From positions 1 to 64,000 of the forward strand of contig JANXMY010000036.1 in assembly GCA_025354405.1 (NCBI GenBank): a stretch of DNA of 64,000 nucleotides, given 5' to 3'. Of the stretch, positions 23,905 through 43,766 are shown in pieces (the stretch's first letter is position 1; each line of letters starts with the position of its first letter). Below the pieces are notes generated by a model. That model was not told the origin of the DNA. It ran no database searches and saw nothing but the letters and a program-made list of their open reading frames with translations. Origin of the DNA: Armatimonadota bacterium (lineage in GTDB: Bacteria > Armatimonadota > Armatimonadia > Armatimonadales > Capsulimonadaceae). The translations under genes were made by a program, and so were the position numbers.

Positions 23905-25379
23905 TACTTATGCTGTTCCCGCCAGCGCAGAACCGGCTTTCGGGCCGCAGTCGCTTCGTCGAGTTTATGCACCACAGTCTCATGCGGCGCAGACAACACA
24001 ATCGCTGGGTCGGTCTCGATTTCACTTGCAATCTGACGCATCGCACTTATGAAGCTGTCCAGTGTCTCCATGCTCTCCGTTTCCGTCGGCTCGATCATTA
24101 AAGCTTCCGGCACCAAGAGTGGAAAATAGATCGTCGGCGGGTGGAATCCGAAGTCCATCAGTCTCTTTGCAATATCTAGTGCCCGAACACCACGCTCACG
24201 CTGCTGACGCTTTGCCGTGAACACGCATTCGTGCATACATAGTTCATTATAGGCGACGTCGAAGGAGTTCTGTAGCTGAACACGAATATAGTTTGCATTC
24301 AGCACGGCATTCTCCGCGATATTCGCGAGGCGCTCCCGTCCATAGTACAGAATATAGGCATAGGCACGGAGGATACATAGAAAAGAGCCATAGTAGCCAT
24401 GAATTCGGCCAATCGATTTTGGACGATCATAATCACGTCGGTATCCCCCGTCTGTCTTTACGACCTGCGGTACAGGCAGATAGGGTTCCAAAATCGACTT
24501 TATCCCGACCGGACCAGACCCAGGTCCCCCACCCCCATGCGGTGAGGAAAACGTCTTATGAAGGTTGAAATGCATGACGTCGAAACCCATGTCACCAGGA
24601 CGCGCCCGCCCAACCAGTGCATTCATATTTGCGCCGTCGCAGTAAACCAGGCCGCCCGCGGTGTGGATCATCGCGCAGATCTCGGCGATATCGTCTTCAA
24701 ATAGCCCGAGTGTATTGGGGTTTGTGAGCATCAGTCCCGCGACATTCTCCTGATTTTCAGTAAGCAGCGTTCGAAGATGCGCCATATCTACGCGACCACG
24801 TCCATCGGATTTTATCGTCACTGTCGTGTATCCGCAGCGTGCTGCCGACGCTGGATTTGTTCCATGCGCGGCCTCCGGCACAAGCACGAGACATCGCTGC
24901 CCCTGACCGTGGTCATCATGGTATGCTTTGATCAGCATCAGGCCAAGAAGCTCACCGTGCGCTCCCGCCGCGGGCTGCAGGCTCACCGTGTCCATGCCAC
25001 CGATCTCCGCCAGGATCTCCTGCATCGAATATAAGACTTCTAATGTTCCCTGGGCTGCCGTGTCAGGGAGATCTGGGTGGACACGGGCAAACCCAGGCAA
25101 GCGGGCCACTTCTTCGTTCAGCTTGGGATTGTACTTCATGGTACAGGACCCAAGCGGATAAAACCCGGAGTCCGTCGAGTAGTTAAGCTGCGACAAATGG
25201 GTGTAATGCCGAATAACTTCGGGCTCCGACAGCTCCGGCAACGGCAGTGTACTGCGCAGTCCTTCGGAAGGCAGCAGGTCAGAGATCGATAAGACTGGAA
25301 CATCACACGCAGGCAGCTCAACACCGGAGCGTCCCGGCTTGCTGAGTTCAAAAAGCAGAGGCTCGATCGTCAGTTTCAT
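23904..25379 (-). CDS. gcvPB: Glycine dehydrogenase (decarboxylating) subunit 2
   Basis: 491 residues, the PLP-bearing half of split P-protein, which decarboxylates glycine and loads the aminomethyl group on GcvH. The PLP lysine is in [20 protein letters not shown]. The N-terminus has [20 protein letters not shown] and [14 protein letters not shown], typical of the subunit. The start at 25379 overlaps the gcvPA stop by 4 bases (ATGA); the longer frame to 25448 is rejected. Length is normal. Confidence 0.96.
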
Positions 25380-26692
25380 CTCATTTCCTCTGAAAGCGCG
25401 GCGACGAGTGCATCGATTTCGACGCGGGTTCGCTGCTCCGTGACGCAAAATAGCATGGCGTGCCCTAATTGCGGGCGCTGCTGCGTCAGTGGCAGGCCGC
25501 CGATGATGCCACGGGCCAGAAGCCGTTCGTTGATCTGTACTGGGTCGGTTGGTGTTGTCACCGCGAACTCTTTAAAAAATGGTTTCTCCGGAAACGCCAA
25601 GGCAAACCCTGGAAGCCTACCTATCTCTGCCGCGGCATAGTGCGACTTCTGCAGGCAGAGCTCCGCCACCTGCCGCATTCCCTGCTTACCCATTGTTGCC
25701 AGATATACCGACGCTGCAAGCGCATACAAAGCTTCATTCGTGCAGATATTACTGGTGGCCCGTTCTCGCCGGATATCTTGTTCACGAGTACGCAGGGTCA
25801 TAACAAATGCCCGTTTGCCATCGGCATCCGTGGTTTGCCCAACGATACGCCCTGGGAGACGCCGCATAAACTCGTTTTTGCAGGCAAATAAGCCAAGGAG
25901 TGGCCCACCATATCCCATAGGGCAGCCCAGGGCCTGCCCTTCGCCGACGACGATATCTGCGCCGTAGTCGCCCGGCGGAGTCAAGATTCCAAGGGAGATC
26001 GGATCTACACAGACAACCAACAAAGCACCTTTTGCATGGGCCGCTTCGGAAAGCTTATCCATATCTTCCAGGTTCCCGTGAAAGTTCGGATGCTGAACCA
26101 GAAGCGCGGCAGTCTCGTCTCCTAAATCATCGCTGCTTTCAACGATGTCCAGTGCGATATTTATGTGCCGGAGGTACGTCTCCGTGACCGCTCGGTAGTT
26201 CGGATGAACTGTGCTGAGCATCGCAATGCGGCTGCGGCCCGTGAGATCACTTGCCATAATCGCGGCTTCCGCGAGGGCCGTCGCCCCGTCATACATGGAA
26301 GCATTCGCCACGTCCATACCCGTCAGCTGACAGAGGAGAGTCTGGAACTCGAAGATGCTTTGCAGCATGCCCTGGCTGACTTCCGGTTGATAGGGGGTGT
26401 AGGACGTGTAAAACTCGGACCGCCCGGTGATTGCCGCCACTGTCGGAGGGGTGTAATGGTCGTAGATACCTGCCCCTAGAAAGCAGGGAAAGTCGTCCGC
26501 ATGGACGTTTTTCCGGGCGAGAGTAGTCAGATGCCGCATCAGGGAGATCTGATCCAGGCGCGGCGGTATGTTCAGTAGACCCTGAAATTGCTGGGGCTGT
26601 GGTATTTGGTCAAAAAGTGCGTCAAGCGACGACACTCCGATTGTCGCGAGCATCTCCGACCGATCGGTGTCCGTGTTTGGAATATAAGACAT
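25376..26692 (-). CDS. gcvPA: Glycine dehydrogenase (decarboxylating) subunit 1
   Basis: 438 residues, partner of GcvPB in the split P-protein. Seen: the start [58 protein letters not shown] and [20 protein letters not shown], all conserved in the family, and [16 protein letters not shown] precedes the ATG. It lies 9 bases after gcvH and overlaps gcvPB by 4. Confidence 0.96.
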
Positions 26693-26701
26693 GCTGTGTT
26701 C

Positions 26702-27076
26702 CTAGAAAGTGGCTTCATACGCGGCACTGTCCAGTAACGTCTCGGCATCGGCGGGCTGCGTCATTTTAATTTTGACCATCCAGCCCTTTCCATACGGATC
26801 GTCGTTGACTAGCTCAGGAGCATCATCGAGAGCTTCATTGACGGCAACGACTTCTCCCGAAACTGGCGCGTACAGGTCGGAGACAGCTTTGATGCTTTCG
26901 ATCTCACCTAGTTTGTCGCCGCGCTGAAGCATCCGTCCAACTTCCGGCAGAAGTGTCAGCGCGACATCGCCAAGCTCTCCCTGTGCATGGTCTGAGATTC
27001 CGACAGTGGCGATATTCGCGTCAATGCGGCACCATTCGTGAGTCGAACTGAAATTCAAGTCAATTGGAGTGGGCAT
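26702..27076 (-). CDS. gcvH: Glycine cleavage system H protein
   Basis: 124 residues. The lipoylated shuttle between P, T and L proteins. Lipoyl Lys63 lies in EIESIKAVSDLYAPVSGEV, and the start holds THEWCRID. ATG 27076 is chosen over an in-frame TTG at 27082. It sits between gcvT and gcvPA with gaps of 14 and 9 bases. No L-protein gene (lpd) is visible in the window, so that subunit is shared from elsewhere. Confidence 0.96.
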   Translation of the reverse strand: MPTPIDLNFSSTHEWCRIDANIATVGISDHAQGELGDVALTLLPEVGRMLQRGDKLGEIESIKAVSDLYAPVSGEVVAVNEALDDAPELVNDDPYGKGWMVKIKMTQPADAETLLDSAAYEATF

Positions 27077-27090
27077 AGTCAATTCACTTT

Positions 27091-28155
27091 CTAAACACCG
27101 TTACGGTAAAACGGCAGGGCAACGACTTTCGCGGGACAGGCACGCCCCCGAATATCTACGGAAATGGGCGTGCCAAGAACCGCAAATTCAGCATCGACAC
27201 GGGCCATCGCGATACCTGCTCTGAGTGTAGGAGACCAGGTTCCGCTGGTCGTATGGCCTATCAATTCCCCATTGGCTGAGATAGGATAGTGTTCGCGCGG
27301 GATCGCACGCTCGTCCATCTGGAGGCCAACGAGGCTGCGGTTTTTCGGCAGGTCCAGCAAAGCAGCGCGGCCAATAAAATTCCCTTTATTCATTTTGACC
27401 GCCCAGCCGACCCCAGACTCGAAAGGGCTAGCCTCGGCATCGAGTTCATGTCCGTAAAGCGGGTAACCTGCCTCCAGGCGCAGGACATCCCGTGCTCCCA
27501 AACCGGCGGGCACGCCCCCGGCATCGGTGAGTTTCTGCCAAAGGCTTGGAGCATCGGCACTTTCACAGAATATCTCGAAGCCATCGTCCCCCGTGTAGCC
27601 GGTACGTGAGTAGATTAATCCGCATTGACCCCGCGAAAACTGAAAGCGTTTCAGCTCACTCAGATTTTCTTGACCGGTGAGCTGCGAAATCAATTCCACA
27701 GCTTTTGGCCCCTGCACGGCGATCAACGCTGTCGATTTGCTGACATCTTCCAGTACGACATTTGCTTTCCCTTGCACCTGCGCCTGCAGCCAGTCCCAAT
27801 CTTTGTCCTTACAGCCTGCGTTCAGAACGATCAGATACGCATTGGAAGCCAGGCAATAGATAATAATATCATCAATTACTCCCCCATTCTCGTTGAGCAG
27901 AAGCGAATACTGCGCTTTTCCGGGGGAGAGTCTGGCGGCGTCATTGGTCGTTAAATATTGGATAAAGTCGAACGCGCCGGACCCGCTCACACTGACTTCT
28001 CCCATGTGGGATACATCAAATAGGCCTGTGGAACTGCGCACGGCGGCGACTTCCGCCACCGTGCCGGCATAGGAAACTGGCATCTCCCACCCTGCGAAGG
28101 GAACCATCGTGGCGCCGGCAGCGAGATGTGTTTCATACAGGGAGGTGCGTTTCAT
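27091..28155 (-). CDS. gcvT: Aminomethyltransferase (glycine cleavage T protein)
   Basis: 354 residues. Releases ammonia from the aminomethyl-GcvH and forms 5,10-methylene-THF. Seen: FAGWEMPVSYAG, GLFDVSHMGEVSVSG, YSLLLNENGGVIDDIIIYCL, SRTGYTGDDGFEIFC and GLGARDVLRLEAGYPLYGHE, in family order. The start overlaps the livF stop by 4 bases, which couples it to the ABC transporter genes. Confidence 0.97.
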   Translation of the reverse strand: MKRTSLYETHLAAGATMVPFAGWEMPVSYAGTVAEVAAVRSSTGLFDVSHMGEVSVSGSGAFDFIQYLTTNDAARLSPGKAQYSLLLNENGGVIDDIIIYCLASNAYLIVLNAGCKDKDWDWLQAQVQGKANVVLEDVSKSTALIAVQGPKAVELISQLTGQENLSELKRFQFSRGQCGLIYSRTGYTGDDGFEIFCESADAPSLWQKLTDAGGVPAGLGARDVLRLEAGYPLYGHELDAEASPFESGVGWAVKMNKGNFIGRAALLDLPKNRSLVGLQMDERAIPREHYPISANGELIGHTTSGTWSPTLRAGIAMARVDAEFAVLGTPISVDIRGRACPAKVVALPFYRNGV

Positions 28156-28856
28156 TCGCCCAGGTATGCTTTCTTGATGTCGTCGTTCGCAAGCAGTGCC
28201 TTTGCTTCATCCGCCATCACGATGTGACCGGTCTCTAGAACGTACCCGCGATGAGCGATACCAAGCGCTAGATGGGCATTTTGTTCGACCAGAAGCACGG
28301 TCGTTCCCTGCTGGTTAATATCTTGGATAATCCGAAAAATGTCACGCACCAAAAACGGTGCCAGGCCCAGGGACGGCTCATCAAGCAGCAGAAGCCTGGG
28401 ACGAGCCATCAGTGCACGGGCCATCGCTAGCATCTGCTGCTCACCGCCAGAAAGGGTTCCAGCATTCTGACCGATCCGCTCTCGCAGTCTTGGAAACAGC
28501 GTCAGGCCTCGTTCCAGATCCTCAGCGATACCAGCCCGGTCGCGCCGCGTGTAAGCACCCAGCTCCAGGTTCTCACGCACACTCATATTTGCAAATATGC
28601 GCCGCCCCTCGGGAGAGTGGCCGACACCCAGCTGCACGATCTGATCCGCCGGCTTATTGGTAATTTCTTTGCCTTCGAATAGTATCCGGCCACTCTGGGA
28701 TGGAACTAAGCCGGAGATCGCGCGGAGCGTTGTACTCTTGCCGGCCCCATTCGCCCCAATCAGAGTGACGATTTCGCCGGCCGCAATTTCCAGCGAAACG
28801 CTCTTTAGGGCTTTGATTGGACCGTAAGAAACCTCGATATTTTCCAGAATAAGCAT
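28152..28856 (-). CDS. livF: Branched-chain amino acid ABC transporter ATP-binding protein LivF
   Basis: 234 residues. Walker A GANGAGKST, ABC signature LSGGEQQMLAMARALM, Walker B LLLLDEPSLGLAPF and H-loop region VLLVEQNAHLAL; the SLGLAP and EQN forms are typical of LivF. It powers uptake of branched-chain or other amino acids or amides with LivG. Genes for the permeases LivH/LivM and a binding protein are not in the window, and its operon partners here are gcv genes. Confidence 0.92.
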   Translation of the reverse strand: MLILENIEVSYGPIKALKSVSLEIAAGEIVTLIGANGAGKSTTLRAISGLVPSQSGRILFEGKEITNKPADQIVQLGVGHSPEGRRIFANMSVRENLELGAYTRRDRAGIAEDLERGLTLFPRLRERIGQNAGTLSGGEQQMLAMARALMARPRLLLLDEPSLGLAPFLVRDIFRIIQDINQQGTTVLLVEQNAHLALGIAHRGYVLETGHIVMADEAKALLANDDIKKAYLGE

Positions 28857-28859
28857 AGA

Positions 28860-29642
28860 CTAAGACACACTCGAACCGGCGTCGACTTCCCCCAGGTAGG
28901 CTTCGATAACTTTGGGATCTTCCCGTATCTCGCGTGGGGTGCCCTGTGCGATCACCTGCCCGTAGTCGAGGACCAAGATCCGCTCGCAGATGCCCATCAC
29001 AACTTTCATGTCGTGTTCGATCAGCAAAATGGTCACCCCGAACTCGTCACGCAAAGTGCGAATCTGCTCCATGAGATCGTTTTTTTCCTGTGGGTTCATG
29101 CCCGCCGCCGGTTCATCGAGCAGCAGCAATTTTGGCCGAGTCGCCAGAGCACGTGCGATCTCCAGGCGTCTTTGCTCGCCGTACGCTAGACTTTTCGCGG
29201 TGTCCCCATAATATTTCCCCAGTCCAAACCGCTCTAAAAGTGCCATGGCCTCGTCCCTGGCGGCGTTTTCGGCAAGGGTGAAAGATTTGCCGCGCCAGAT
29301 TGCACTGAGAAGTGACGGCTGATAATGCAAATGCGTTGCTGTGCGAACGTTATCCAGCACGGTCAAGGCGGGAAATAGACGGATATTCTGAAAGGTACGG
29401 GAGATGCCAGCCGCCGCGATCTGATAGGGTTTGTGCCCTGCAATCGAGCTGCCACAGAACTGAATTGTGCCGGAAGTGGGTGCGTAAACCCCTGTCAGGA
29501 GGTTAAACGCCGTCGTTTTACCTGCGCCGTTCGGGCCAATAAGGCCTACCATCTCGCCGGATTCGAGCGAGAGCGTAAACTGGTTGACAGCAGTAAGGCC
29601 ACCAAATTGTTTGGTGCAGTCTTTGACTTCCAGTAGCGGCAT
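28860..29642 (-). CDS. livG: Branched-chain amino acid ABC transporter ATP-binding protein LivG
   Basis: 260 residues. Walker [19 protein letters not shown], signature [16 protein letters not shown], Walker [17 protein letters not shown] and [21 protein letters not shown], the usual LivG forms. The frame is open to 29693, but [16 protein letters not shown] at 29642 is the natural start. The -10 box of a promoter lies exactly six bases before it, so the message is probably leaderless. First gene of the nine-gene minus-strand operon. Confidence 0.92.
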
Positions 29643-29678
29643 CTTTGGATGATACCCGAAATGGAGAACCGGTCGCAA
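29643..29678 (-). promoter_or_regulatory. livG-gcv operon promoter, possibly leaderless
   Basis: Minus strand: TTGCGA (29678-29673), 18 bases, TATCAT (29654-29649), then six bases to the livG ATG, so +1 would coincide with the start codon. The -10 is one base off consensus and the -35 two off. Confidence 0.5.
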
Positions 29679-29712
29679 TATCCCCCTGGCCAAGTCACCA
29701 GCAGAGAATCAC

Positions 29713-29742
29713 TTGACAAAGCCCCTGTTTCGTCGTTATAAT
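29713..29742 (+). promoter_or_regulatory. Promoter of the six-gene membrane operon
   Basis: TTGACA (29713-29718), 18 bases, TATAAT (29737-29742): both boxes are consensus. Expected +1 about 29749, giving a leader of about 17 bases with no clear Shine-Dalgarno. Confidence 0.8.
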
Positions 29743-29765: not shown

Positions 29766-30233
29766 ATGGACCCCATTACCGCTACTATTGCCGATGCCGA
29801 CGAAATTGGGCAGGCCCAGTCTATATTATTGAGCTGGTCGGTACATCTGATGCGGCGGCAGCCAAACCGACTGCCGAAAATTATTTGCGTGTTGGGGTTA
29901 GTTTTCCTGAGCAGCGTTTGGCTGTTTCACTCGTTCTGGCTGGCACTGCTGCCGACCCTCGCGGCACTCTTTTCCGTATCAGAATTCGTGTTCCCAATCC
30001 ATTACACTCTGACACCGAAGTCCGCGGCGATGAAATGCGGATTAACGGCCCTGGAGATCCAATGGTCCGATGTCCGCCATGCCTACCTGACCGATGAGGG
30101 CATCAAGCTTAGCCCTCTTCGAAGAAAAAACTCCCGAATGGAGCCGCTGCGCGGCGTGTTTCTTCGCTTCGATGAGGCGCAGCGCGAAGAGATCATCGCC
30201 ACCGTGACACGTCTGCGCCAGAGAGCCCAATAA
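29766..30233 (+). CDS. Two-helix membrane protein, first gene of the membrane operon
   Basis: 155 residues. Two adjacent transmembrane segments (about 41-73, LPKIICVLGLVFLSSVWLFH and ALLPTLAALFSVSEFVF) are followed by a small cytosolic beta-rich domain (IHYTLTPKSAAMKCGLTALE, IQWSDVRHAYLTDEGIKLSP, GVFLRFD) that looks like a bacterial PH-like fold. I know no function. It follows a consensus promoter and lies 2 bases before the next gene. Confidence 0.7.
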   Translation: MDPITATIADADEIGQAQSILLSWSVHLMRRQPNRLPKIICVLGLVFLSSVWLFHSFWLALLPTLAALFSVSEFVFPIHYTLTPKSAAMKCGLTALEIQWSDVRHAYLTDEGIKLSPLRRKNSRMEPLRGVFLRFDEAQREEIIATVTRLRQRAQ

Positions 30234-30235
30234 AG

Positions 30236-30583
30236 ATGGCAAATGCATTCGGGCTGTTCCAATTCGATTGGAATGCGGCCCTTAGCGATGAAGAGACAGA
30301 TCAGATGCTGGACAAAATTGCCGCCTCAATCGGTAAGTGGCGCATGGAAGTGCCGGCGATCCTGTTTTTGGAAAGCAGCGGCCCGCTCAGCCCGCTCGCC
30401 GGACAGGGATTGATCGCTTTCTCGCCATTTGTCGCGCCAGCCATGCCGCAGGGGCTGACAGATGTTCAGAAGCTGAGCAAGCTGTTGGAGCGGCCTGGGA
30501 ACGTACGCCGCCTTGTGGACAAACTCAGTGACCAACTGACATCCCGCGAGCAACTTAAGGAGACAGATGCAGCACGCAAGTGA
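30236..30583 (+). CDS. Small conserved-looking protein of the membrane operon
   Basis: 115 residues, no signal peptide. A central hydrophobic stretch (VPAILFLESSGPLSPLAGQG then LIAFSPFVAPAMP) and a C-terminal charged helix (LLERPGNVRRLVDKLSDQLT) suggest a membrane-associated partner, not a typical helix bundle. It overlaps the next gene by 17 bases. Unrecognised by me, but its tight packing in the operon supports it as real. Confidence 0.65.
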   Translation: MANAFGLFQFDWNAALSDEETDQMLDKIAASIGKWRMEVPAILFLESSGPLSPLAGQGLIAFSPFVAPAMPQGLTDVQKLSKLLERPGNVRRLVDKLSDQLTSREQLKETDAARK

Positions 30584-31379
30584 AAACTGGTGGGTCAGCG
30601 GCCTGGTTATCTTGCTGTCACTCATCATTGTCGGTAAGGTTCTCTTAGCTCAGCGGGGCCGAGTGCCTTTTATTCGCCGGATTTCCGGACTGAATGCAAT
30701 TGACGAAGCAGTGGGGCGAGCGACGGAGATGGGACGCCCCGTCATGATGGTTCCCGGCATCAGCGGCCTGGATGTTGTGACACTTCAGGCCCTCTCCATC
30801 TTCAGCTATATTGCCCGTGCCGTCGCGCGATTCGGCAATAAAAGCATTATCCCCACGATTGACCCCATCGTGACTGGGGTCGCCGAGGAGACTTTGCAGG
30901 ATGCCTATGCCGATGCCGGTCGCCCAGAATTGTATGACAGTGGCGATGTGCGTTACCTCACGGGCCAGCAATTTGCGTTTGCATCCGGGGTAGCCGGGAT
31001 TATCGTCCGTGAAAAAGTCGCGGCCTCTTTCCTGTTTGGGGCTTTCTTTGCAGAGTCGCTCATTTTCGCTGAAGTTGGTCAGCAGGTGGGGGCGATACAA
31101 GTTGCAGGAACAACCGAAACCAATCAAATCCCCTTCTTTATTGCTGCTTGTGACTATGTGATTATTGGGGATGAGTTTTACGCGGCGAGCGCCTATCTGT
31201 CCCGCGATCCGACATTGCTGGGCAGTATTGTCGGTCAGGATTATTGCAAGCTGCTCCTGCTGGCGATCATCTTTCTGGGGCTGATTGGCGTCAGTCTATT
31301 GAATGTGCCATTTCTCGCACATTCCAGTCTGTTCTCACATCCACTACACTGGGTAGTGGATCTCTTAAAGGTGAAATAA
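30567..31379 (+). CDS. DUF6754-type membrane protein
   Basis: 270 residues. An N-terminal membrane helix (GLVILLSLIIVGKVLLA) precedes a conserved soluble-looking core: RISGLNAIDEAVGRATEMGR, PVMMVPGISGLDVVTLQALS, QVAGTTETNQIPFFIAACDY and VIIGDEFYAASAYLS. A second hydrophobic helix (LLLLAIIFLGLIGVSLLN) lies near the end. I recognise this as the DUF6754 type from memory, without a search. Function unknown. Its stop overlaps the next ATG by one base (TAATG). Confidence 0.75.
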   Translation: MQHASENWWVSGLVILLSLIIVGKVLLAQRGRVPFIRRISGLNAIDEAVGRATEMGRPVMMVPGISGLDVVTLQALSIFSYIARAVARFGNKSIIPTIDPIVTGVAEETLQDAYADAGRPELYDSGDVRYLTGQQFAFASGVAGIIVREKVAASFLFGAFFAESLIFAEVGQQVGAIQVAGTTETNQIPFFIAACDYVIIGDEFYAASAYLSRDPTLLGSIVGQDYCKLLLLAIIFLGLIGVSLLNVPFLAHSSLFSHPLHWVVDLLKVK

Positions 31380-32254
31380 TGCTGCACACACTACAACATT
31401 TTTTCGCCCCGATGCCCGGACATGGAGCTTGGTATTTTGAGAAGCTTGCTCTGGGCCTGCTGTTCATGTTTGCCATTCTGGGAGCACTGCAGCTCGCTCC
31501 TCGACGGGCACGGAAAGGCATTATTGCCTTTTTCACCTTTCTGGGCGGTGCGTATTATGCTGCTGAATTCTTCTGGCCAACGAATTCCGCGACGAATCAA
31601 AATTTTCTAACACCTTACCAGGATACGGTCGCAGGACTAGCTTCGGTGGTCGGTTCATTTGCGATTGGCCTGGGAGTGATCTCGCTCCTGCAGAATCACA
31701 CGCGTCAGCTTGCCAGGCGGCGGCCGGGATGGGGCTACAGCGCGATATTCCTGGTGTTCTTTCTCGCGATGACGGTCTTCGGGCTGATGAATGCTTATAG
31801 CGCAAAATCTACGGTCATTCCTGCAGTGCCCGGATTTTGGGCACGGCAGGACGCACATGGACTATTTCAATTTCTTTTTGTGGGCGGGCTGACTAACCTG
31901 GGGTCAGCAACCTTCGCCATGATTGCGTTTTACATTGCCTCCGCCGCTTACCGCGCATTTCGTATTCGGTCTTTGGAAGCAACGCTTCTTATGATTGCGG
32001 CATTGATCATCATGTTCGGATCCGTGTCGTTTGGAACATGGCTTACACATGGTATTCACCCCGTTCTTGCGGACGGCTCCGAAAACCCCTGGGCGAACCT
32101 CCGGATCGAAAACATCGCGCAGTGGCTGATGCTGCAAGTCAACACACCGGCCCAGCGCGGGATTTTGTTTGGCCTGACCCTCGGCCTGCTCGCCACTTCT
32201 TTACGCTACTGGCTGAGTCTGGAGCGTGGTGCATACTTTGAAAAAGAACTATGA
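31379..32254 (+). CDS. Seven-helix membrane protein of the membrane operon
   Basis: 291 residues with about seven transmembrane segments (near 18-34, 42-58, 78-98, 112-130, 152-175, 190-208 and 242-260). ATG 31379 follows AAAGGTGA and overlaps the previous stop. The longer frame back to 31244 is an artefact. Charged loops carry PRRARKG and HTRQLARRRPGWGY on what would be the inside. No enzyme or transporter signature is visible. The end overlaps the next gene by 4 bases. Confidence 0.75.
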   Translation: MLHTLQHFFAPMPGHGAWYFEKLALGLLFMFAILGALQLAPRRARKGIIAFFTFLGGAYYAAEFFWPTNSATNQNFLTPYQDTVAGLASVVGSFAIGLGVISLLQNHTRQLARRRPGWGYSAIFLVFFLAMTVFGLMNAYSAKSTVIPAVPGFWARQDAHGLFQFLFVGGLTNLGSATFAMIAFYIASAAYRAFRIRSLEATLLMIAALIIMFGSVSFGTWLTHGIHPVLADGSENPWANLRIENIAQWLMLQVNTPAQRGILFGLTLGLLATSLRYWLSLERGAYFEKEL

Positions 32255-33108
32255 ATACTAACCAATGGAACCGTTTACAGACCATTGACCGGCGAGTAAT
32301 TTATGCCATTTTACTGGTGGTCATTCTCATCCCGCTCTTTTTCCCGATCACACTGCCAACGTTTCCCAGTAAGCAGTCTCGAAATTTTTATGACACAATA
32401 GAGAAAATTGCCAAAGATTCTCCAGACAAAATCGTCATTGTCGATGGATGGTGGTCACCCAGCACACGTGGAGAAAACCAGTGGCAGGCACAGGCGATCA
32501 TCACGCACCTGATGATGCGGCATTTGCATTTCGCTATTCTGTCATTTGACACGCAGAATAACACCGTCACGCAGAGCCAGATCGTTGAACCGCTGGCAAA
32601 AAAGTATGGCTATGTTTATGGAAAAGATTATGTCAACTGGGGCTTTCGACCGCTTGCCGCATTTGTCCCGGTCGCGAAGGGTCTGGTCATTGACATTCCA
32701 GGAACGATTAAAAAAGACTACAAAGGCACGCCAATTACTCAGTTTCCGGTGATGAAGGGAATAAAGACGCGCAGCGACGTTGGCGCTCTGATCGAAATCA
32801 CTCCCTCCGCCAGTGCTGAGGGTTGGCTTGGCATGTTTGAGAAAAACAACAGCCCGCCGTTTCTGTTTGCCCCCACTGCTGTCATGGCCCCAACCTACTA
32901 CCCTTACTTAGACACCGGGCAGATGGCTGGAATGCTGACCGGAATTAAAGGTGCCGGAGATTATGAGGGCCTTCTTGGGACACACAGCTTTGGCAGCCGA
33001 GCTGCGGGTGCTCTGTCACTGGTCTACGCACTGATTATTGCGCTCATCGTACTCGGGAACATTGGCTACTACGCGACACGTGCGGCGAGCCGAAAGGAAG
33101 ATCGGTAA
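32251..33108 (+). CDS. Membrane-anchored extracytoplasmic domain protein
   Basis: 285 residues. One membrane helix at each end (RRVIYAILLVVILIPLFFPI, about 13-32; LSLVYALIIALIVLGNIGYY, about 254-273) encloses an extracytoplasmic domain. That domain looks alpha/beta: DKIVIVDGWWSPSTRGENQW, HLHFAILSFD, GKDYVNWGFRP, KGLVIDIPGTIKKDYKGTP and DVGALIEITPSASAEGWLG. It could bind a ligand, but no family is recognised. Overlaps neighbours by 4 bases and 1 base. Confidence 0.75.
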   Translation: MNTNQWNRLQTIDRRVIYAILLVVILIPLFFPITLPTFPSKQSRNFYDTIEKIAKDSPDKIVIVDGWWSPSTRGENQWQAQAIITHLMMRHLHFAILSFDTQNNTVTQSQIVEPLAKKYGYVYGKDYVNWGFRPLAAFVPVAKGLVIDIPGTIKKDYKGTPITQFPVMKGIKTRSDVGALIEITPSASAEGWLGMFEKNNSPPFLFAPTAVMAPTYYPYLDTGQMAGMLTGIKGAGDYEGLLGTHSFGSRAAGALSLVYALIIALIVLGNIGYYATRAASRKEDR

Positions 33109-33791
33109 TGGAGTATATCCGGCATCTCTTCAACCCTATTCTGCTCTTCGGTGCGCTTGGCACCATGGCGATCCTCTCACTCGTGTTCAAAGAAAATCGC
33201 TTTTATCGTGTATTTGAGCATGTTTTCTTGGGCCTTGCACTAGGTTACGACCTGGAATTCACCTGGACGACCATTCTGCGTCCACTGTTTTGGGATGCGA
33301 TGGTGCGTGATGGCCAATGGGCCTGGGTCATGACGGTGCCGGTCGGCCTGATGTTCTATGGCATCTATACACAGCGCTTCACCTGGATGAGCCGAGTAGT
33401 ATTTGGTATCTTCTTTGGCCTGAATGCCGGCGCCGTCTTTCAGGACTTTGCTGGGCGGGTCGTTCCGCAGGTGACCAAATCTTTTCTCCCGAGCAAGTCT
33501 TTAATCCCGCCGCCTCCCATACCGGGTGACCCGCATGCCTTGCTGCATCAGATTTCATTTGTTCTGAATAACTTTTTGTTCCTAGGAATCGTGGTCTCGG
33601 TACTTGTGTATTTCCTATTTGCATTCGAGCAAAAAAATAAAGCCGTCTTGCGGACGGCTCAAATTGGGCGATGGGTTTTGATGTTTGCGTTTGGCGCGAT
33701 TTTCGGCTCGACCATCATGACACGTATGGCCCTGCTGATCGACCGAATGTATTTTATTTTTCACGACTGGCTGCGCTTGGTAAAGGGCTAG
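33108..33791 (+). CDS. Six-helix membrane protein, last gene of the membrane operon
   Basis: 227 residues with about six hydrophobic segments (ILLFGALGTMAILSLVF, VFLGLALGYDLEF, WVMTVPVGLMFYGIY, VVFGIFFGLNAGAV, FLFLGIVVSVLVYFLFAF, VLMFAFGAIFGSTIM) and an outer loop with PPPPIPGD. Family not recognised. Its 3' part contains a hairpin (33641-33659) that works as a terminator only on the opposite strand. Confidence 0.72.
   Translation: MEYIRHLFNPILLFGALGTMAILSLVFKENRFYRVFEHVFLGLALGYDLEFTWTTILRPLFWDAMVRDGQWAWVMTVPVGLMFYGIYTQRFTWMSRVVFGIFFGLNAGAVFQDFAGRVVPQVTKSFLPSKSLIPPPPIPGDPHALLHQISFVLNNFLFLGIVVSVLVYFLFAFEQKNKAVLRTAQIGRWVLMFAFGAIFGSTIMTRMALLIDRMYFIFHDWLRLVKG
33631..33659 (-). terminator. Minus-strand terminator inside the last membrane-operon gene
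   Basis: Minus strand: AGCCGTC, loop CGCAA, GACGGCT, then TTATTTTTTT. It would end the transcript of the zinc-ribbon gene about 130 bases past its stop, within the convergent coding sequence. Confidence 0.8.
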
Positions 33792-42030: not shown

Positions 42031-42921
42031 ATGTCTCTCTTCGATAAACGTAACTCGGACGTCGACGCTCGGGCTAAATCCGATCTGGATCGCCTCGCCT
42101 GTGGCGGTTTGCCAGCAGGAGCGGAGCGCCGTCTGAACGCTCTGCGGCAGAACGGAACGTTCTTTACCAGCAATTTGAGCGTCAATGAATTGGTTATGGC
42201 TATGACAGAAGGTGTCCGCCCACTGGGGCAGGTGATGGGCAGCACGGTGTATCACGTCGGCTGGCAGTTTACGCCATTGTACCGAAGTACGGAACTGACT
42301 GCTCTCAGCCACGCGCAGTATCAGGCCCGCCTGCTCGCAATTTCGCGCCTGCAGCAGGAAGCGCGGCTTTTGGGGGCGCATGGAGTGATCGGTGTCCGCC
42401 TGGAGCGTCAAGCGTATGCCTGGGGTGAAAACCTGATCGAGTTCTCGGCGCGTGGCACGGCCGTCGCTTTGCCGGAGATGCCGGTTCCAGAACACCCCTT
42501 CGTCTGCGCTCTCTCCGGGCAGGAATTTTACGCTCTGCGCCGCGGCGGCTTTTTCCCGGTGGGATTTGCTTTCGGCACCTGCACCTATTACCATGTCGCT
42601 ACTTCTGCCAACCAGTGGGTGACGCAGGGCGGCGTTTTCGGCGGCGGTTCTCTGCAGAATATGGAGTTAACCGACTACACCCAGGCCATCTACACTACCC
42701 GCCACCTCGCCATGACCCAGATGAACAACGAAGCGTCCCGCGTCTCTGCGGAGGGCATCGTCGGTGTCATCATTGAGAAGTCGATCCAGACCCGCGAAGT
42801 TGAGGTCAACCAAATCCCCCGGCGCGATTTGGTCGTCGAGTTCACCGCAATGGGCACTGCGATTGTCGCTGCGGGTTCGGACACGATGACCATTGATTAC
42901 GCCCTTTCACTCTCGGATTAA
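42031..42921 (+). CDS. Two-domain YbjQ/UPF0145-like protein (first paralogue)
   Basis: 296 residues holding two YbjQ-like units. The first (about 42-150) has TSNLSVNELVMAMTEGVRPL, a YHVGWQ strand, a QARLLAISRLQQEARLLGAH helix, GVIGVRLE and ARGTAV. The second (about 153-285) repeats this with LSGQEFYALRRGGFFPVGFA, the helix MTQMNNEASRVSAEGIVGVI and FTAMGTAIV. The family is annotated as putative heavy-metal binding, and this is from structure, not proven function. A close paralogue follows at 42936. Cytosolic by sequence. Confidence 0.78.
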   Translation: MSLFDKRNSDVDARAKSDLDRLACGGLPAGAERRLNALRQNGTFFTSNLSVNELVMAMTEGVRPLGQVMGSTVYHVGWQFTPLYRSTELTALSHAQYQARLLAISRLQQEARLLGAHGVIGVRLERQAYAWGENLIEFSARGTAVALPEMPVPEHPFVCALSGQEFYALRRGGFFPVGFAFGTCTYYHVATSANQWVTQGGVFGGGSLQNMELTDYTQAIYTTRHLAMTQMNNEASRVSAEGIVGVIIEKSIQTREVEVNQIPRRDLVVEFTAMGTAIVAAGSDTMTIDYALSLSD

Positions 42922-42935
42922 GGAGAACACTTGTT

Positions 42936-43766
42936 ATGCCAAGCCCCTACACACCCGGCTCACAGGAAGGCCTGCCGATACATGCTCGTAACCGCCTGGC
43001 GGCTATGAAGCCGGGGGCAAACCAGAAGGGCCTCTTTACCAGTGACCTTTCGGTCAATGAATTTCTGCTAGTCAAGGAAGCCGGGTTCGACCCGCTTGGC
43101 CTGGTAGTCGGCTCCAGCATCTACCATATCGGCTGGCAAAAACCGGCTATGAATCAGAGCATGGAGCTGGAAACATTGACACAGGCCATGTACCATGCCC
43201 GTGAGCTGGCCATGACCCGTATGGAAGAAGAGGCGGACAGTCTTGGGGCGGACGGTATCGTAGGCGTTCGACTGGAAGTCGGGCGGCAGGAATGGGGAGA
43301 GAACCTGGCAGAGTTTATCGCCATTGGTACTGCCATCAAAGCCCAAAACGGCGAATCACATCGGGCACCGAACGGCCGGCCTTTTACGTCAGACCTCAGC
43401 GGGCAGGACTTCTGGACTTTGACCAAGGCGGGCTACCGGCCAATTTCGTTCGTCATGGGAAACTGCGTCTATCATGTCGGCTATCAGGGCGTCAAGGCCT
43501 GGTTCTCCCAAATCGGACAGAATGTCGAGATGCCGACTTACACGCAAGCGATTTACGATGCCCGCGAGCTATCTTTGGCCCGAATGCAGGCAGAGGCCGA
43601 GCAGCTGGGAGCGGATGGAATCGTTGGAGCGACGATCAAGGAAAGCTCACATGGCTGGGGCAGCCATGTGATCGAGTACTTTGCTGTCGGGACCAGCATC
43701 ATCGCGACCCGTGCCGATCACACAATTCCGACTCCCTCGCTGATACTATCATTGTCAGACAAATAG
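42936..43766 (+). CDS. Two-domain YbjQ/UPF0145-like protein (second paralogue)
   Basis: 276 residues, clearly related along its length to the preceding gene: TSDLSVNEFLLVKEAGFDPL, IYHIGWQ, MTRMEEEADSLGADGIVGVR, FIAIGTAI, then TSDLSGQDFWTLTKAGYRPI, CVYHVGYQ, RMQAEAEQLGADGIVGATIK and YFAVGTSII. AAGGAG precedes the ATG. The two genes give four YbjQ-type units in tandem, presumably from two rounds of duplication. Confidence 0.78.
   Translation: MPSPYTPGSQEGLPIHARNRLAAMKPGANQKGLFTSDLSVNEFLLVKEAGFDPLGLVVGSSIYHIGWQKPAMNQSMELETLTQAMYHARELAMTRMEEEADSLGADGIVGVRLEVGRQEWGENLAEFIAIGTAIKAQNGESHRAPNGRPFTSDLSGQDFWTLTKAGYRPISFVMGNCVYHVGYQGVKAWFSQIGQNVEMPTYTQAIYDARELSLARMQAEAEQLGADGIVGATIKESSHGWGSHVIEYFAVGTSIIATRADHTIPTPSLILSLSDK

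Follow-up and report, generated by a model that had tools for sequence, protein, structure and literature searches.

What system is encoded by six tightly packed genes, most of them for membrane proteins, in the genome of an Armatimonadota bacterium? The genes form an operon at positions 29766-33791 of a stretch of 64,000 nucleotides (from contig JANXMY010000036.1; the whole stretch analysed is referred to as the window). It is a solid conclusion that these genes, g1 to g6, constitute most of an undescribed eight-component, two-module membrane system of bacteria and archaea, in which g3-g6 form a membrane quartet and g1 and g2 belong with two genes located elsewhere, mutL and p375. The parts, the two modules, the gene orders, topology, co-divergence and co-occurrence were established directly. 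With regard to function, we favor multi-component solute uptake by a mechanism unlike that of known transporters, at a probability of about 0.45.

Genomes, fetched loci and contigs compared are labeled G, L and C, respectively, and G000 is the genome of the window. Most relatives are metagenome-assembled genomes (MAGs), in which naming and binning may err, and G201 and G202 are fragmented. Open reading frames (ORFs) were called mechanically.

The membrane quartet

The operon consists of a promoter and six ORFs on the plus strand:

29713-29742, + strand: sigma-70-type promoter, TTGACA-18-TATAAT, 12/12 match to consensus
29766-30233, + strand: g1, two-helix membrane protein, possibly PH-like, of the shared C module; homologues head the g1-g2-mutL-p375 and eight-gene operons
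30236-30583, + strand: g2, small protein without a family, of the shared C module; in Bacillota and deep Armatimonadota mutL is the next gene
30567-31379, + strand: g3, DUF6754 (PF20539), transmembrane helix - cytosolic alpha/beta domain - transmembrane helix; quartet
31379-32254, + strand: g4, polytopic, six family helices and one N-terminal extra (topology, alignment); second quartet gene
32251-33108, + strand: g5, extracytoplasmic alpha/beta domain with a helix at each end and charged short tails inside; third quartet gene
33108-33791, + strand: g6, polytopic, five to six helices (topology, alignment); fourth quartet gene

The ORFs and junctions were as claimed in the first-pass annotation, with a gap of 2 bases followed by overlaps of 17, 1, 4 and 1 bases from g1 to g6. 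The start of g4 is the ATG at 31379; an alternative, longer ORF with a TTG start at 31244 overlaps g3 and is unlikely to be in use.

The genes g3-g6 are a fixed quartet in both bacteria and archaea, with three phyla represented. About 80 loci were fetched and searched in all six frames with g3-g6 profiles, and of the 80 g3 genes in the sample four were cut by a contig end, leaving 76. At 71 of these 76 loci, from Armatimonadota, Bacillota and Bathyarchaeia MAGs, g3 was followed by g4, g5 and g6 in this order and on its own strand, the median gap at the junctions being 6 bases. The outcome that the first-pass annotation had named as refuting its proposal, homologues dispersed over the genomes, was not what was found. 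Among the five exceptions are tandem duplicates of g5 in L086 and of g3 in L087, both in operons that are otherwise normal; at L091 a frame was missed, at L097 g6 is dispersed and L113 is a g3-g4 remnant. The distances for g3-g6 were correlated with each other (r = 0.67-0.79, with 0 of 500 permutations as high) and this co-divergence held also among 25 paralogues within the single Bacillota genome G201. Mean identity was highest for g3 (40%) and lowest for g5 (31%).

Topology was averaged over the 71 operons. Both g3 and g5 have a domain of about 200 residues with one helix at either end. In deep Armatimonadota g3 carries a signal peptide (of lipoprotein type in L081) and repeat domains ahead of the first helix, which places the N-terminus outside and the DUF6754 domain inside. 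The tails of g5 are short and basic at both ends, and this charge bias places its domain outside, in accordance with the extracytoplasmic domain annotated earlier. For g4, six family-wide helices with alternating charged loops were observed, preceded in the window copy by an extra N-terminal helix, so that the seven helices assigned to it were right for this copy. For g6, where six helices had been proposed, five gave clear peaks and the sixth a weaker one. The invariant or near-invariant charged residues cluster in the inner g3 domain (R51, E54, R148, E163, E169, D196, E203 and D225, with R51, E54, D196 and E203 invariant). The least conserved subunit, g5, is a candidate for the substrate-binding part.

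By eye, the N-terminal extracytoplasmic repeats of g3 in L078, L081 and L088 (deep Armatimonadota) resemble fibronectin type III; the window copy is without them. A similar motif order prompted a test of homology between the inner g3 and outer g5 domains, and the match was the best of 15 profile pairs yet weak (hhalign probability 5-11%, P = 0.003-0.007), and homology is not claimed.

Among the six genes, g3 matched DUF6754 at full length (E = 1.8×10−94, 316 bits against a cut-off of 27, positions 9-245 of 257), as had been recognized from the sequence earlier, and g1, g2, g4, g5 and g6 gave nothing above Pfam, NCBIfam or PADLOC cut-offs. When compared with PDB chains, the g3-g6 profiles had no significant match, and p375 and mutL had weak matches to unrelated proteins only. 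As the first-pass annotation had stated, no member matched a known transporter or secretion family in these family and PDB-profile searches. Weak single matches below cut-off, of g4 to Acyl_transf_3, of g6 to ABA_GPCR or GldL and of g5 to an F420-0 binding protein, were rejected, and a defence system was likewise rejected as there was no PADLOC match. PF20539 covers g3 only and gives no function, DUF6754 was not mentioned in the literature searched, and neither the quartet nor the second module nor a link between the two appeared in the databases and literature searched.

A second module with an ATPase-like protein

In deep Armatimonadota (L078, L079, L083, L084, L088) mutL and p375 stand between g2 and g3 and the eight genes form one operon. 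In the Bacillota genomes G220, G232 and G274, g1-g2-mutL-p375 is a separate operon in this order, away from the quartets and headed by g1 homologues (E = 4×10−25 to 2×10−14). Because the Bacillota keep these four genes apart from the quartets, the deep Armatimonadota operon can be described as two operons joined. The window operon is the joined form minus its middle: mutL is at G000:C173:27357-28769, outside the window contig, and a whole-genome search located p375 at G000:C229:44488-45606, not adjoining mutL. Archaeal G364 has a single mutL-p375 pair, a single g2 at another place and seven quartets. The earlier suggestion that the six proteins form one membrane complex was supported and extended by the order and co-divergence of the quartet, but it was incomplete because g1 and g2 belong to the second module, together with mutL and p375 on other contigs.

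The mutL protein has about 600 residues and matches PF13941 (MutL/GlmL, the accessory ATPase of methylaspartate (glutamate) mutase) over its whole length (E = 7×10−128), and most copies retain the ASKHA (actin/Hsp70/sugar-kinase type) phosphate motifs DCGSTTTK and DIGGATTD. It differs from GlmL in having an extra C-terminal part, in being linked to membrane genes and in scoring far below the NCBIfam cut-offs (G000:C173: GlmL 221/475, Or-4 211/600, glmL_fam 163/204 bits). The mutL proteins make up a separate, long GlmL-like subfamily of the ASKHA-type ATPases. Members of p375, which has no family of its own, match RnfC/NqrA and biotin-lipoyl barrel-sandwich domains (best E = 1×10−6) and, weakly, KOW. 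A motif, PAI.FLES..PLS...SQ, is conserved in g2. The two-helix part of the earlier description of g1 stood, and its PH-like domain was weakly backed (bPH_6 matched in 2 of 11 members, best E = 0.005).

One could also imagine a membrane-anchored enzyme or cofactor-handling complex, with mutL as reactivase or chaperone, the part that GlmL plays for a B12 mutase, and the quartet holding or repairing an enzyme of amide or amino-acid breakdown. Membership of mutL in the GlmL superfamily, the lipoyl/NqrA/RnfC-type barrel domains of p375 and the many invariant polar residues of g3 are all compatible with this. We nevertheless consider it rather doubtful, given that mutL falls under the GlmL, Or-4 and GlmL-family cut-offs, that it would be hard to account for a genome with as many as 27 diverged membrane units, and that no B12-dependent mutase was recognized beside the modules in the loci read, where the neighbors of mutL were g2, p375 or unrelated genes.

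Two observations on individual loci concern this module. In G090, a one-contig genome, two partial mutL genes are located about 48 kb apart (C1:4149731-4150696 and 4101206-4102006) with p375 behind the second, and this split is a rearrangement or a misassembly. At L122 (G201:C34), two amidohydrolase-like genes come after g2-mutL-p375, and a further p375 fragment and g2 copy come before it.

Distribution, copy number and co-occurrence

DUF6754 was found in 173 of 201 genomes of the window's phylum (127 of the 140 good ones), in 7 of 101 Bacillota genomes (one match being weak) and in 2 of 121 genomes from the phylum to which a Bathyarchaeota MAG belongs. The 14 control genomes were without it, and the searches of viral contigs and plasmids for relatives gave none. 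The nearest named relative is the Armatimonadetes MAG L002 (g3 identity 86%). The Bacillota MAG G201 has 27 copies and the archaeal MAG G202 has 9. G364 has 7, which sit on contigs of 0.19-1.08 Mb, and only one each of mutL, p375 and g2. In a tree of 71 g3 proteins the Armatimonadota formed a single supported clade, and the Bacillota and archaeal copies formed several interleaved old subfamilies.

The soluble components followed DUF6754 closely: g2 was present in 24 of 24 genomes with DUF6754 and 0 of 14 without (Fisher's Exact Test, p = 1×10−10), p375 in 23/24 against 0/14 (p = 2×10−9) and the long mutL in 32/33 against 4/56 (p = 1×10−18), these tests treating genomes as independent samples, which they are not. 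All four mutL-positive genomes lacking DUF6754 are Armatimonadota MAGs that are at most 92% complete, and in G118 and G090 the long mutL is in pieces. Within Armatimonadota, DUF6754, g2, p375 and mutL are jointly absent in at least three families (f6, f9 and f11), of which f9 and f11 contain DUF6754-bearing genomes too. The short GlmL proteins of other Bacillota did not track with DUF6754.

Presence in most Armatimonadota resembles a cell-envelope function rather than optional uptake, and the operon could be envisaged as an export or cell-envelope system for a peptide, lipid or polymer, powered by the ASKHA ATPase, with the single-copy Armatimonadota form representing the ancestral role. The near-universality as a single copy in that phylum fits export no worse than uptake, and the extracytoplasmic extensions of g3 in deep lineages agree with it. 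The copy numbers and catabolic neighbors in Bacillota and archaea do not, and no secretion, lipid or glycan gene recurred beside the operon in the loci read, which makes export an improbable explanation.

Genes located near the quartets

The Bacillota and archaeal quartets often have as neighbors genes for the breakdown of amides and of derivatives of amino acids. These encode amidohydrolases of the D-aminoacylase type, M20 hydrolases, creatininase, MlrC, formiminotransferase, a hydrolase of the AAT type, amidase, nitrilase, hydrolases resembling class-I glutamine amidotransferases (C26) and a relative of thiohydantoin desulfurase. Within 3.5 kb of the G201 quartets, 6 Amidohydro_3 genes were found with 1.4 expected (P = 0.003). 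That the catabolic neighbors point to the function is suggestive. The G201 genome (L003, L043-L062, L072-L077) is unusually amide- and peptide-oriented, with 80 Amidohydro_3 and 46 M20 matches and 27 DUF6754 quartets.

A possible function in solute uptake

Solute uptake is proposed because the membrane units are numerous and diverged and vary in their outer domain, and because they are combined with few shared soluble proteins, including one with an ATPase-type fold, and with varied catabolic neighbors. The copy numbers, with many quartets per genome but single mutL, p375 and g2 genes in G364, are the pattern of substrate-specific units with a shared module, and the contrast between the conserved inner g3 and the variable outer g5 was counted for the same reading. 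We infer complex formation, transport, the class of substrate and coupling to ATP. Module M (g3-g6) would be the membrane unit, with the variable domain of g5 outside, g4 and g6 as the membrane path and the conserved domain of g3 in the cytosol, and module C (g1, g2, mutL, p375) would be a mainly cytosolic unit of which one set serves many M units per genome. The solutes would be small and nitrogenous, for example derivatives of amino acids or amides. They would be bound and selected outside by g5 and translocated by g4/g6, while the C module would dock on g3 and power or gate the translocation, with g3 passing on energy or control from g1-g2-mutL-p375.

The phosphotransferase system (PTS) and the energy-coupling factor (ECF) transporters are uptake systems with a shared energising part and many membrane units, and by analogy the system described here would work like either, being related to neither. 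It shares with ECF transporters (common EcfAA'T) one cytosolic module for many substrate-specific membrane modules, but has another subunit plan without an ABC ATPase, EcfT or S component; no ABC_tran match was obtained in g1-g6, mutL or p375. With the PTS it shares common soluble proteins serving many membrane permeases near catabolic genes, and there was no EI, HPr or EII Pfam match in the same eight proteins. Tripartite ATP-independent periplasmic and tripartite tricarboxylate transporters (TRAP/TTT) also combine an extracytoplasmic domain with a larger and a smaller polytopic subunit near genes for carboxylate or amide catabolism. The present system differs in its outer domain, which is anchored at either end, and in having in addition a subunit with a conserved cytosolic domain and a shared ATPase-like module. 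The proteins g4, g5 and g6 had no match to DctM/TctA-type permeases or DctP/TctC-type binding proteins. A more specific form of the uptake proposal, which we regard as unlikely, is a new class of primary transporters in which mutL, with its ASKHA-fold ATPase, p375 and g2 are the shared energising unit that docks on the DUF6754 domains of many substrate-specific quartets.

The same architecture could be read as transmembrane sensing, with g5 sensing outside, g3 relaying inward and g1-g2-mutL-p375 as the common output, comparable to chemoreceptors that share one kinase core. Many receptor-like quartets per common module, a sensor-like outer domain and an inner domain that is the most conserved would be expected of such a system as well. 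A relay would, however, not need two polytopic proteins per unit, and none of the components was found to contain a kinase, cyclase, receiver or DNA-binding domain, so that we hold sensing to be quite unlikely.

Several results weigh against uptake. No component has homology to a transporter family, and to our knowledge no ASKHA ATPase energises transport. G221 has DUF6754 and no detectable mutL or p375. The catabolic neighbors are modestly enriched, in a post hoc test, M20 and creatininase genes taken alone were not significantly enriched near the G201 quartets, and the host genomes are rich in such genes regardless of quartets. The system is present mostly as a single copy in Armatimonadota, where its surroundings show no consistent link to catabolism, and its role there may differ. 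Finally, no structure was predicted with confidence for g3 or g5 (AlphaFold2 mean pLDDT, the predicted local distance difference test score, of 45 with 4 sequences and 35 with 3 sequences, respectively), likely because few sequences were in the input; no conclusion rests on a fold.

Promoter and surroundings of the operon

The consensus promoter proposed upstream of g1 was retained: its hexamers and flanks are kept in L002 and L093 more than the surrounding DNA. Looser matches (9/12) were found 5 times, compared to 3.9 expected in shuffled sequences. Other features of the window are:

25376-28155, - strand: gcvT, gcvH, gcvPA, following the livF/livG-like pair and divergent from the operon
28152-29693, - strand: livF, livG-like branched-chain amino-acid ABC ATPase pair, divergent from the operon; same position in L002 and L093
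33792-34193, - strand: small zinc-ribbon-like protein convergent with g6; HVO_0416 matched weakly (E = 0.003, below cut-off)
42031-43766, + strand: two adjoining genes for similar proteins, each apparently two copies of a YbjQ-resembling domain (by eye)

The divergent ABC ATPases and glycine-cleavage genes were rejected as partners of the operon, since they are kept there in close relatives only.

Significance

A gene set that keeps its order in three phyla and both prokaryotic domains, and that reaches 27 copies in one genome, has had its function described only as a DUF number. The co-occurrence makes this orphan domain part of a defined eight-gene set, and seven uncharacterised families (g1, g2, g3, g4, g5, g6 and p375) and a relative of GlmL thereby gain a common, testable context. 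If the system is a transporter, its architecture would be one without an ABC ATPase or a known permease fold, and it would explain how uncultured amide- and amino-acid-degrading bacteria and Bathyarchaeia may feed.

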